Positions 1,198-6,069 of a stretch of DNA of 20,263 bases are shown one piece after another. Position numbers and translations under genes: made by a program. Under the pieces are notes generated by a model. It was not told where the DNA came from. It did no database searches and was given only the letters and a program-made list of their open reading frames with translations. Position 1 is the first letter of the stretch. Each line of letters opens with the position of its first letter. This stretch comes from a virus: positions 1-20,263 of IMG/VR virus record IMGVR_UViG_3300032322_001997; one strand, given 5' to 3'.

Positions 1198-1201
1198 AAG
1201 G

Positions 1202-1283
1202 TGTCGGTGAAAGGACTTGAACCTTCACGGGATACCCCACTGGAACCTAAACCCAGCGCGTCTACCAATTCCGCCACACCGAC
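1202..1283 (-). tRNA. tRNA-Leu (anticodon TAG)
   Basis: Acceptor GTCGGTG/CACCGAC, discriminator A, anticodon TAG, a long variable arm (class II) and T arm GGTTCAAGTCC. Length 82 nt; the 3' end reads ACCT, so CCA is not fully encoded. It follows the 2OG oxygenase gene by 63 nt with no clear terminator between them, so the late operon could read into it. Confidence 0.95.
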
Positions 1284-1346: not shown

Positions 1347-1847
1347 CTATAGCATAGTCCCCCAGACTTGTAAAGACCTTCTTGGATATGGTGCTGTACT
1401 TGAAACTTGTGTCACAGAATGACTTTCCGCTTCTGTATTTATTACAAGTGTGCCAGGTTCAGGACATAGTGCATGGAGTTTCATTTCATTGTCTTCCCAT
1501 AAAAACAATCCTCCCCACTTTTTATTCCACTCATTTAAATATAAGGTAGCACCAAAAGCATAATTTGCATCTGTGTGCCAACGAATACCAGAATTTTTTA
1601 ACCATACATTATAATTAACTGTTAATTTATCGTGTGATGGTAAATGCGATAATAATTCTTTTTTTATCTCTCGTTCTAAAAGGAAAGATACATCTGCAGA
1701 TAAACAAATGCCAGGAATATCAACAAACAATCCTTCATCCCAGGTAGTTTGATTAGAAGACCATGCACGTTGGGATATTAATGCATCTATTTCTTGATTA
1801 CAAGCATTTAATAATTCTTTTTTAATTGAGTTTTTTATAATTTCCAT
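1347..1847 (-). CDS. 2-oxoglutarate/Fe(II)-dependent oxygenase (prolyl-4-hydroxylase-like)
   Basis: A 166-aa protein with the double-stranded beta-helix signature. The iron site is H91-x-D93 (WHTDANYAFG) with distal H143 (ESHSVTQV), and arginines R156/R157 (RRSLQVW) would bind the 2-oxoglutarate carboxylate. FGATLYLNEWNKKWGG and CPEPGTLVINTE match the beta strands of P4H-type enzymes. Length is normal for a single-domain phage enzyme. Such enzymes use O2 and 2-oxoglutarate to hydroxylate a protein or small molecule; the substrate cannot be told. The gene overlaps the end of the ANL ligase gene by 26 bases, so both are translated from one late message and probably act in one process. Confidence 0.9.
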   Translation of the reverse strand: MEIIKNSIKKELLNACNQEIDALISQRAWSSNQTTWDEGLFVDIPGICLSADVSFLLEREIKKELLSHLPSHDKLTVNYNVWLKNSGIRWHTDANYAFGATLYLNEWNKKWGGLFLWEDNEMKLHALCPEPGTLVINTEAESHSVTQVSSTAPYPRRSLQVWGTML

Positions 1848-3360
1848 TAGGATTTCTAAAATATTCTCTCAATTTTTCCATATCAAGTTTTATACTACCA
1901 AAATATGTTTCGTAATTCAATATACTATATTTTGTTATTTTGTGTTTACCTTCACTTATACTTAAAAGTCTAATATTTAGAGTGTTAACTTTCTCTTCAA
2001 GTTCTAAAGAGAAATTTATTTGTTCCCAAATAACCAAATATATTTCAGATTTAATTTGATCAAAAACTAATTCTGAATGAAAATATTCATTGGAAATAGA
2101 TGAATACTGCTTAGAATTGATTTGTAAATCATTAATTCGTAATAAATCAATTCTTCCTTGGTGATTATATGCATCATCTTCTAGAACAAATTTGTCCTTC
2201 ATGATTATAGTTTTATTATAAACTGGCATAGAAACTTCTAAACCATCATTAACTATTTTTACATCAAAGTAATTATCATTTTTTTTATATAAAGTTTCTG
2301 AAAAATTTTTATCGCTTGCTTTATTTAAAAATACAGGTCCTGTAGTTTCATTGCTACCGAAATTACTTACAATATCTCCAATTACTCCAGTTTTATAATA
2401 ATTATCTACCCATTCAGATTTTATATAAGATAATATATGAATATTTGTACGAGAAAAAAAGTTAGATTTTATTTGTTTAAAGATTGCTTCACACACTGAA
2501 GCGTCACAAGTTGCTATATGATCTACCCCACCAACATCATTACAAAATTCAATCATCTTTAGAATTTTTTCCTCAAATGTAAGAGTTTCATTAGAAGTTT
2601 TTTTTGTGGTAAAAGTAGTAGGATTAATTCTAGGAAAGTTTTGAATTAAATAAAAATCTGTAACATTTTTACAAATAATTGCGGGCATCAAATAGCAAAA
2701 AATACTGCTTCCGTGATTAAGACTTCGTGTATTAAGATATTTTCCATAAAATTGCTTACTGTTTCTATACATCAATGAGTATAAAAATTCATGCGTATGA
2801 AGTATGCACTTTGGAGGTCCAGATGTTCCACTTGTTAAACTTTTAGTTAAAACAAATTCTTTCTGCGATATAACCGTATTACAAATTTTAGATTTATTTA
2901 CATCATCATGATCAAAATATCTTACTAAGGTTTTATTTGCATATTGTTTTGTATAGTAATGCTTAGAATTTATTTCTTTCTCTACTGGTAGTTTTTCATA
3001 AGATAAAATAAAGTAATCAATAGGTAATAAATTTTTAATTTTATCAATATAAAGTACGTCTAAATTAAATGTTTTTTTCTGCACATAAGGATTATTATCA
3101 GGATTATTAAAAAAATCAAAAATAATAACAGTTAAACCTAGTTCATAACAAGCAAATAATGCTGCAACTTGCCATATACCAATATCTTCTCCAATTAGAA
3201 CAGTTTTCTGTGGTTGAATTCCACTTGATAATAAAAAATTTTTATATAAATCTATACACTTTGATAGATAATTAAAATTATATTCAAATAATTTAAAACT
3301 TAAAATATCATAATCATAAAATTTTATATTTTTATTGATTACTTCTCTCGTAATAATCAT
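1822..3360 (-). CDS. AMP-forming ligase of the ANL (acyl-CoA synthetase / adenylation) superfamily
   Basis: A 512-aa protein carrying the ANL core motifs in order: the phosphate loop LTSGTSGPPK at residues 175-184, an NFGSNETTGP motif at 333-342 (equivalent to YGxTE), and QGRIDLLRINDLQI at 401-414 (the GRxDDxIKxxG hinge). A lysine-rich SEGKHKITKY segment near the C-terminus may supply the catalytic Lys. Family members activate a carboxylate with ATP to an acyl- or aminoacyl-AMP and pass it to CoA, a carrier protein or an amine. No carrier domain or carrier gene is seen here. The ATGA overlap with the DUF6356-like gene and the 26-base overlap with the oxygenase show an operon. The gene looks clearly more AT-rich than nrdA, suggesting recent transfer. 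The substrate is unknown. Confidence 0.88.
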   Translation of the reverse strand: MIITREVINKNIKFYDYDILSFKLFEYNFNYLSKCIDLYKNFLLSSGIQPQKTVLIGEDIGIWQVAALFACYELGLTVIIFDFFNNPDNNPYVQKKTFNLDVLYIDKIKNLLPIDYFILSYEKLPVEKEINSKHYYTKQYANKTLVRYFDHDDVNKSKICNTVISQKEFVLTKSLTSGTSGPPKCILHTHEFLYSLMYRNSKQFYGKYLNTRSLNHGSSIFCYLMPAIICKNVTDFYLIQNFPRINPTTFTTKKTSNETLTFEEKILKMIEFCNDVGGVDHIATCDASVCEAIFKQIKSNFFSRTNIHILSYIKSEWVDNYYKTGVIGDIVSNFGSNETTGPVFLNKASDKNFSETLYKKNDNYFDVKIVNDGLEVSMPVYNKTIIMKDKFVLEDDAYNHQGRIDLLRINDLQINSKQYSSISNEYFHSELVFDQIKSEIYLVIWEQINFSLELEEKVNTLNIRLLSISEGKHKITKYSILNYETYFGSIKLDMEKLREYFRNPNGNYKKLN

Positions 3361-3599
3361 TTTTTATATTGCTCAATATAATCTTGGTATTCGTTGTTTG
3401 GATGATTTACCAAACGTTTATGATAAAAATCAATAACAGTTTTTGCTGCAGTGCCTTGAAAAAATGCTGGCACAACACCATGGATGATACTAGAACATCC
3501 CACTAAAATCATTTTGACACCAGCATAAGTAGCCCAAACTAAGTGACTACCATAAGTCTCTTGACTTTTTTTCAAATGTTGCTTACTAGTTTTTAACAT
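3357..3599 (-). CDS. DUF6356-like small membrane protein
   Basis: An 80-aa protein with the pattern I associate with DUF6356: an SQETYGSHLVWATYAG opening, a hydrophobic segment (residues ~25-45), IIHGVVPAFFQGTA and a C-terminal helix with FYHKRL. Family members are short and membrane-associated, and occur in bacteria and cyanophages without a known role. It is the first gene of the late operon. Its ATG at 3599 is preceded directly by an AT-rich hairpin and a TATAAATA late promoter, with no recognisable Shine-Dalgarno. Its stop overlaps the ligase start (ATGA). Whether it supports the ligase/oxygenase pair or is a passenger is unknown. Confidence 0.75.
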   Translation of the reverse strand: MLKTSKQHLKKSQETYGSHLVWATYAGVKMILVGCSSIIHGVVPAFFQGTAAKTVIDFYHKRLVNHPNNEYQDYIEQYKK

Positions 3600-3616: not shown

Positions 3617-3624
3617 TATTTATA
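3617..3624 (-). promoter_or_regulatory. T4-type late promoter for the ligase/oxygenase operon
   Basis: An exact TATAAATA (3624-3617) begins at the base after the discriminator of tRNA-Thr and lies 17 nt upstream of the DUF6356-like ATG. This puts the three-gene operon in the late, virion-assembly phase. An exact 8-mer at the proper distance is unlikely to be chance, though the region is AT-rich. Confidence 0.7.
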
Positions 3625-3698
3625 AGCTACTGGTCGGACTTGAACCGACGACCTACGGTTTACAAAACCGTTGCTCTATCCAGCTGAGCTACAATAGC
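3625..3698 (-). tRNA. tRNA-Thr (anticodon TGT)
   Basis: Acceptor GCTATTG/CAGTAGC (one U-G), discriminator U, anticodon loop TTTGTAA, T arm GGTTCAAGTCC. CCA is not encoded. The late promoter of the following operon starts at the base after its 3' end; tRNA-Asn lies 2 nt upstream. Confidence 0.95.
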
Positions 3699-5286: not shown

Positions 5287-6069
5287 TCAATTAATTAATT
5301 TTTCTATTTCAGGACTAAGAATTTTTGCAATAGTAGAATGTCCAATCGCATTTGGATGTTTAGAATATGGATTTAATAGATTTAAAGATATACCTTTTTG
5401 TATAGTTTTTTTATCTACTTTCCACACGGAAGTGTGATATTTTTCACTATCACAAAATTTAGTCATTTTTGATAATAAATCTCTTGGATTTTCATTTTTA
5501 AAACATAAATTATAAACTGGATTTATATAATCATGATGATTAAAAGTATCTATCCAAATATTTTTTATTCCCAATCCAGAAAAATATTGGTTCCAATGAT
5601 GCATATGAGTATTTAATGTTTCTATTTCCACATCATAATCATAAAAATGGTCTAAAATTAATTTAGATAATTTATTTTCTAAATCATTTACAGTATGATT
5701 ATAACAAATACTTGTAAATTTATTATCTCTTTTTACATAATAATCACCTCTAAAAACAGATGTTATACACCACATCACGTAAATATTATTATTATATCTT
5801 ATTTGAAGGTCTTCAAAATTTTCACTTATAAAAAAATTTTCAGCTAATCTAAATTGTGTTTGATTACTTGATCCACCTTTTGAAAAATTTATATTGTCTA
5901 ATCTATATTTTTTACATAATAAAGATCTAAAACTATATTTTTCATTAATCGATGTATCCCAACATTTTTTTGTCAATTCTAATGCATTTTTAGATTCATA
6001 TTCCGCACCAAATCCAGCACCAACACCAAAAGTCCAACTACATCCAAAAGTTATCAATGCTTTATTCAT
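5287..6069 (-). CDS. SGNH/GDSL-type hydrolase, inserted gene
   Basis: A 260-aa protein with SGNH family blocks: block I FGCSWTFGVGAG at residues 8-19 (catalytic Ser in CSW), GGSSNQT near residue 64 (Gly/Asn block) and, near the C-terminus, HPNAIGHSTIA, where a histidine of the block V type would complete the site. The usual acid is less obvious. SGNH enzymes are esterases or acyl hydrolases, often acting on acetylated glycans or lipids; related 'GCSWT' proteins are common in T4-like cyanophages, without a known substrate. It is very AT-rich compared with its neighbours and flanked by a 52-bp direct repeat, so it was gained as a cassette. Its ATG overlaps the stop of the 69-aa gene (ATGA). Confidence 0.82.
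   Translation of the reverse strand: MNKALITFGCSWTFGVGAGFGAEYESKNALELTKKCWDTSINEKYSFRSLLCKKYRLDNINFSKGGSSNQTQFRLAENFFISENFEDLQIRYNNNIYVMWCITSVFRGDYYVKRDNKFTSICYNHTVNDLENKLSKLILDHFYDYDVEIETLNTHMHHWNQYFSGLGIKNIWIDTFNHHDYINPVYNLCFKNENPRDLLSKMTKFCDSEKYHTSVWKVDKKTIQKGISLNLLNPYSKHPNAIGHSTIAKILSPEIEKLIN

Follow-up and report, generated by a model that had tools for sequence, protein, structure and literature searches.

A DUF6356-ligase gene pair of uncultured phages and the replacement of its AMP-forming ligase between syntenic relatives

Related systems and the layout of the locus

The ligase analyzed here has the two-domain fold and the motifs of the ANL superfamily (PF00501), whose members include acyl- and aryl-CoA synthetases, NRPS adenylation domains, fatty acyl-AMP ligases and luciferases. 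However, it is only 10-15% identical to the solved members, falls below all NCBIfam subfamily cut-offs, was found here only in viruses, and is set apart by a fixed DUF6356 partner and by allele replacement. DUF6356 (PF19883) is a proteobacterial family, and the phage copies score over its Pfam cut-off. By eye, the DUF6356 proteins of Sphingomonas and Legionella share His, Ser and HxxxP-type positions with the phage copies. What distinguishes the phage copies from the proteobacterial proteins is a conserved NHPN..Y tail and their pairing with the ligase; no ligase gene adjoins any of the annotated bacterial plasmid copies that we inspected. In the open-licence literature searched, DUF6356 is mentioned by one paper, and we found none on the ligase-DUF6356 pair. 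The tie to an adenylating enzyme provides a first functional handle on this family.

Cyanophages carry LPS and sugar clusters near tRNAs (Sullivan et al. 2010, PMC3037559), and NDP-sugar genes are likewise linked to the module in its marine relatives and in L001 (L numbers denote the compared loci). The terms "CoA ligase" and "AMP-dependent" have no occurrence in that paper, which does not mention an AMP ligase, and "acyl-CoA" and "AMP-binding" are absent from a review that covers 45 classes of metabolic genes from 153 cyanophages. Phage flavin-dependent halogenases of the PrnA type (PMC10452541) are another phage-borne tailoring enzyme. A gene of the Trp_halogenase family adjoins the pair in L018 and L053, but the halogenases perform other chemistry and are merely occasional neighbors. 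What is described here is a widespread viral ANL clade that is missing from phage isolates and from the review of the 153 cyanophages.

The window, that is, the whole analyzed stretch of 20,263 nucleotides (IMG/VR record IMGVR_UViG_3300032322_001997), is assigned to the T4-like cyanophage type from its nrdB, which is ~76-80% identical to those of Synechococcus phages, and from the psbA-family genes in the records of four relatives (L002, L031, L037 and L013). ORF calls and ARAGORN confirmed the layout described in an earlier note on this DNA, with three overlapping genes between two tRNAs (Table 1): the ligase gene overlaps that of DUF6356 by 4 bases (ATGA) and that of the oxygenase by 26 bases.

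Table 1. Features of the ligase-DUF6356 module and its flanks in the window
Feature	Position	Strand	Basis
ANL (AMP-forming) ligase, 512 aa; allele replaced between syntenic phages	1822..3360	-	ORF, PF00501, AF2/Foldseek fold
DUF6356 protein, 80 aa, predicted four-helix, probably membrane-embedded; constant ligase partner	3357..3599	-	PF19883, AF2, adjacency
2OG-Fe(II) oxygenase, 166 aa	1347..1847	-	PF13640 and alignment with three orthologues
tRNA-Thr(tgt), directly upstream of module	3625..3698	-	ARAGORN
tRNA-Leu(tag), directly downstream of module	1200..1283	-	ARAGORN
Putative T4-type late-promoter octamer TATAAATA	3617..3624	-	Exact sequence, place kept in 3 syntenic lineages
Ligase P-loop S177-K184 (SGTSGPPK)	2809..2832	-	Invariance in relatives
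Ligase A5 motif G335-P342 (GSNETTGP)	2335..2358	-	Invariance in core relatives
Ligase A8 hinge G402-D405 (GRID)	2146..2157	-	Conservation in core relatives
Ligase A10 region I490-D493 (IKLD), candidate catalytic Lys491	1882..1893	-	Invariance in relatives

It was also proposed in the earlier note that the module is expressed late, from an exact late promoter. The octamer TATAAATA is exact, and its place just 3' of tRNA-Thr is kept in the window, L001 and L008 despite divergence of the sequence between it and the start codon. However, its number is no higher than chance (2 copies in the window versus 2.4 expected), and we rejected the putative promoter as proof of timing. Late expression of the module may still be the case, with modest support from the retained position of this one short motif.

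The ligase and its DUF6356 partner

The ligase is a weak match to the Pfam AMP-binding model, at 35.6 bits (cut-off, 29.9). Every NCBIfam match was far under its cut-off (best, 19.9 bits versus 494), so that the protein fails all curated acyl-CoA synthetase subfamily models, and PHROGs gave no useful family. A profile built from 14 relatives found acyl-ACP synthetase, acetyl-CoA synthetase and EntE in the PDB. The AF2 model (mean pLDDT, 79.8) has the two-domain ANL fold over its full length, and Foldseek aligned it with ANL structures over 500+ columns (E 7e-19) at the low identity given above. The residues of the P-loop, A5, A7, A8 and A10 are present and, except for D405, invariant in 37 full-length core relatives; these include E338, T339, G341 and P342 of A5 and G402 and R403 of the A8 hinge, in which D405 is kept in 36 of the 37. 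The P-loop residues S177, G178, T179, G181, P183 and K184 are invariant in 12 distant relatives as well, as is the candidate catalytic K491 of A10 (49/49). Pfam, the fold and the motif residues all agree with the earlier description of an AMP-forming ligase with P-loop, A5 and hinge, and a check for lost catalytic residues left this description standing. We conclude from the intact motifs and the predicted fold that the enzyme very probably forms an acyl-adenylate from a carboxylic acid and ATP.

The dN/dS of the ligase was 0.07-0.24 in seven of eight close pairs (0.46 in the other, a near-identical pair with few changes), which indicates that the gene is maintained by purifying selection. The highly divergent sequence and its absence from isolates could be taken as signs of decayed or non-catalytic passenger genes. 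This explanation, already disfavored, is very improbable in view of the dN/dS values of most pairs, the invariant catalytic residues and the retention of the pair despite reversal of its gene order.

NRPS domains that activate alpha-amino acids have an Asp at the A4 position. In the phage ligase, the residue assigned to A4 by motif reading, without structural superposition, is His216, which is invariant in 49 of 49 ligases. Since this residue is His and not the NRPS-type Asp, the substrate is probably not an alpha-amino acid.

Acyl-ACP, acyl-CoA and acetyl-CoA synthetases are among the top profile and fold matches, as would be expected of an ordinary acyl-CoA synthetase acting in the lipid or energy metabolism of host or phage, that is, an auxiliary metabolic gene. 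However, we consider this unlikely: the protein lies far under every NCBIfam CoA-ligase cut-off, no other lipid-metabolism genes are among the best 25 neighbor families, and the tight link with DUF6356 and the allele replacement would be left unexplained. A carrier protein was likewise not seen in these best 25 families of 91 neighbor representatives.

The DUF6356 protein of the window matched PF19883 with 55.6 bits (cut-off, 24.4). Its AF2 model (pLDDT 96) has four helices, one of which spans 27 residues (16-42), and a PDB fold search found no solved relative. With a hydropathy mean of 1.68, its best 19-residue stretch is a borderline case for a membrane helix. We predict a small, helical and probably membrane-embedded protein. 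A function as acyl carrier was judged unlikely, as a phosphopantetheine-serine motif was not seen by eye. The DUF6356 ORF of L059 (6428-6745) aligns weakly (26-34% to the copies of its neighbors) and is perhaps frameshifted; the ligase of L059 is intact.

The earlier note had called such a ligase rare in T4-like phages. This is true of isolates: a tblastn search of 50,697 isolate-phage records gave no match with the ligase queries of the window, L056, L013 and L148, and none with the DUF6356 queries of the window and L102. It is not true of metagenomic viral contigs, among which 59 loci encode the ligase, with identities of 23-44%. The carriers of the module are uncultured phages, many of them cyanobacterial. 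Scans of 84,980 prokaryote genomes for ligase and DUF6356 patterns returned candidate stretches, none of which was confirmed; the ligase is thus apparently confined to viruses, and distant bacterial relatives could still exist because the scans were pattern-limited. A few uncultured Caudovirales proteins named AMP-dependent synthetase/ligase are structural neighbors in BFVD, indicating that single proteins of this kind were deposited earlier, with no account of the module that we could find. The loci L109 (3493-8946), L110 (3478-9948) and L067 (5547-9458) each contain two ligase genes.

A DUF6356 gene lies on the same strand beside 38 of 40 distinct core ligases (window counted), and in 35 of the 40 it overlaps the ligase or is at most 24 bp away. 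Some query sequences were originally found via DUF6356, so the loci first found through the ligase (L030-L059) give a fairer count; 20 of these 22 distinct core loci have DUF6356. In the reverse scan, a ligase adjoins 42 of 52 distinct viral DUF6356 genes, the other 10 being without one. The ligases found in this way include very divergent ANLs (L118, L145, L147, L148 and L150), three of which (L145, L147 and L148) are confirmed by Pfam. DUF6356 is absent beside two core ligases (L036 and L039) and twelve distant ones (L062-L073). The gene order varies (18 DUF-first and 20 ligase-first among the core pairs), with the two orders sitting in a few clades and ~4 changes needed on the tree. The conserved unit is the DUF6356-ligase pair. 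Of the conservation expected from the earlier note, the part concerning DUF6356 is borne out by the relatives, but the claim of a three-gene cassette was too strong.

Replacement of the ligase between syntenic phages

The neighboring genes of the window are 72-100% identical to those of L001 or L008, and DUF6356 (91% and 88%, respectively) and the oxygenase (79% and 82%) are similarly close. The ligase is only 44% identical to that of L001 and 30% to that of L008. At the DNA level, an identity of ~85-90% gives way to ~50-65% within the ligase ORF and is regained once the oxygenase is reached. In the tree, the L008 ligase groups with the ligases of marine cyanophages, and its grouping with the window and L001 is disfavored (AU p 0.012), a value to be taken with caution given the long branches and the choice of the group after the first tree had been seen. 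In the marine phages L016 and L020, talC is 99% and the dehydratase 92% identical versus 44% for the ligase; the converse is found in L003 and L004, with 94% for the ligase, 82% for talC and 73% for the 2OG gene. DUF6356 does not track the ligase allele (L004 versus L021: DUF6356 96%, ligase 62%). The whole ligase gene has been replaced between phages that keep its neighbors, an unexpected new observation that goes beyond the earlier note.

This pattern looks like the allele replacement of a specificity determinant. That one enzyme is exchanged while its partners are conserved points toward selection for a varied chemical product. By analogy with serotype or superinfection-exclusion determinants, it may be the choice of acid for transfer that is selected to vary. 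The natural allele swaps also make the question of what phage tailoring enzymes modify a testable one. A more far-reaching reading, which we regard as rather unlikely, is a virus-specific chemical typing, in which DUF6356 as fixed membrane partner and a changing set of ligase alleles would decorate the infected-cell surface or the virion with different acyl or amide groups. Closely related phages would then be of different chemical types and would exclude each other or escape such exclusion.

Companion genes and the proposed function

The oxygenase matched Pfam 2OG-FeII_Oxy_3 with 37.2 bits (cut-off, 27), and its HxD...H triad and 2OG-binding Arg (H91, D93, H143 and R157) are kept in three orthologues. 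This type is kept only in the lineage of the window (L001/L002 and L008/L047); outside it, the searched flanks contain unrelated 2OG families or none, and L033, L034, L037, L042 and L044 show no 2OG oxygenase in the neighbor tally (5-kb flanks on both sides). An obligate third member was rejected because the type changes between clades and several core loci show none; the oxygenase often accompanies the pair but is exchangeable. 2OG oxygenases are common in cyanophages generally (PMC3037559; PMC10452541), and their presence alone is therefore weak evidence. In L001 (8291-9406) and L008 (6094-7305), the oxygenase gene is followed by one for a radical SAM protein, which the window lacks.

Within 5 kb of 36 distinct core loci, a rough tally by sequence cluster, which misses the L008 2OG gene seen in the synteny comparison and genes lost at contig ends, gave 2OG oxygenase in 23, NDP-sugar genes (a broad single-linkage group) in 15, radical SAM in 14, transaldolase in 9, amidinotransferase-like in 6, DegT in 5, SGNH and sulfotransferase-like in 4 each, PLP enzyme in 3, Trp halogenase in 2 and carbamoyltransferase in 1, where the amidinotransferase, sulfotransferase, SGNH and several 2OG labels are sub-threshold Pfam matches or motifs seen by eye. 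The intact catalytic residues of the ANL enzyme and the many oxygenases and other tailoring enzymes around it are in line with the small modification or biosynthetic pathway that the earlier note had envisaged.

We propose, with a probability of roughly 0.4, that the pair is an acyl- or amide-forming decoration module, probably at the membrane, in which the transferred acid varies. The ligase would convert a carboxylic acid and ATP to the acyl-adenylate, its C-terminal domain would swing, and the acyl group would pass to an amine, hydroxyl or thiol. The chances are about even that DUF6356 keeps the ligase on the membrane or offers it an acceptor bound there. The 2OG oxygenase may tailor the acid or the product, for which radical SAM, amidinotransferase-like, sulfotransferase-like, SGNH or halogenase proteins may be used in other clades.

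In marine cyanophages, the ligase has DUF6356 on one side and an NDP-amino-sugar set on the other (cupin, dTDP-glucose dehydratase, epimerases and DegT aminotransferase), and in L001 a set of this kind is ~4 kb downstream of the ligase, just beyond the point matching the edge of the window. Given this setting, the target we favor is a surface glycan that becomes acylated; as the likeliest product, we tentatively choose an acylated amino sugar, glycan or lipid in the host envelope or the virion. Several clades have no sugar genes inside 5 kb of the ligase, so the glycan target may not be general, and a diffusible product or another macromolecule could take its place there.

The first of these alternatives is that the ligase, the oxygenase and the other tailoring enzymes make a small diffusible metabolite (an N-acyl amide or a guanidino acid, for example) that is released, with DUF6356 helping in its export. 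The neighbors in the L048-L056 clade are biosynthesis-like (amidinotransferase-like, PLP enzyme, radical SAM and Trp halogenase), the GH3 (acid-amido synthetase) model gave sub-threshold matches in L003 (E 0.041) and L110 (E 0.0043), and bacterial DUF6356 adjoins exporters in two plasmids. However, the tailoring sets vary by clade with no common set of steps, and no NRPS or PKS partner was seen, which makes a released metabolite an unlikely product. The clusters of L056 (2685-10921) and L053 (5011-10930), with PLP enzyme, radical SAM, amidinotransferase-like protein, ligase, DUF6356 and Trp halogenase, resemble those for small-molecule biosynthesis.

Less likely still is that the activated acid is put on a macromolecule that is neither glycan nor lipid, namely phage DNA, tRNA or a virion protein. 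Radical SAM/SPASM proteins and 2OG oxygenases typically take part in modifying peptides and nucleic acids, and the module lies among tRNAs in the window and near structural genes in some relatives; but a membrane-type partner fits poorly, and among the compared loci tRNAs adjoin the module only in the lineage of the window. In five phage loci without the ligase (L025, L027, L028, L026 and L029), DUF6356 adjoins a methyltransferase (FkbM) and other genes, or DUF7207, and it may thus serve other enzymes too. In bacterial plasmids (L075, L079, L080, L076, L078 and L083), it adjoins Lrp/AsnC regulators or sulfur genes (phosphosulfolactate synthase and phosphatase, TauE/SafE and a sulfate exporter family), neighbors that are a possible clue to its function; sulfonate or sulfite chemistry is a lead from these few loci.

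A 260-aa SGNH/GDSL-like ORF (FGCSWTFG, GGSSNQ and HPNAIGH by eye; no Pfam match) lies at 5287-6069 (minus strand) of the window and is missing at the equivalent place in L001 and L008. SGNH-like genes recur adjoining the ligase-DUF6356 pair in L035-L044, L107, L118 and L147.
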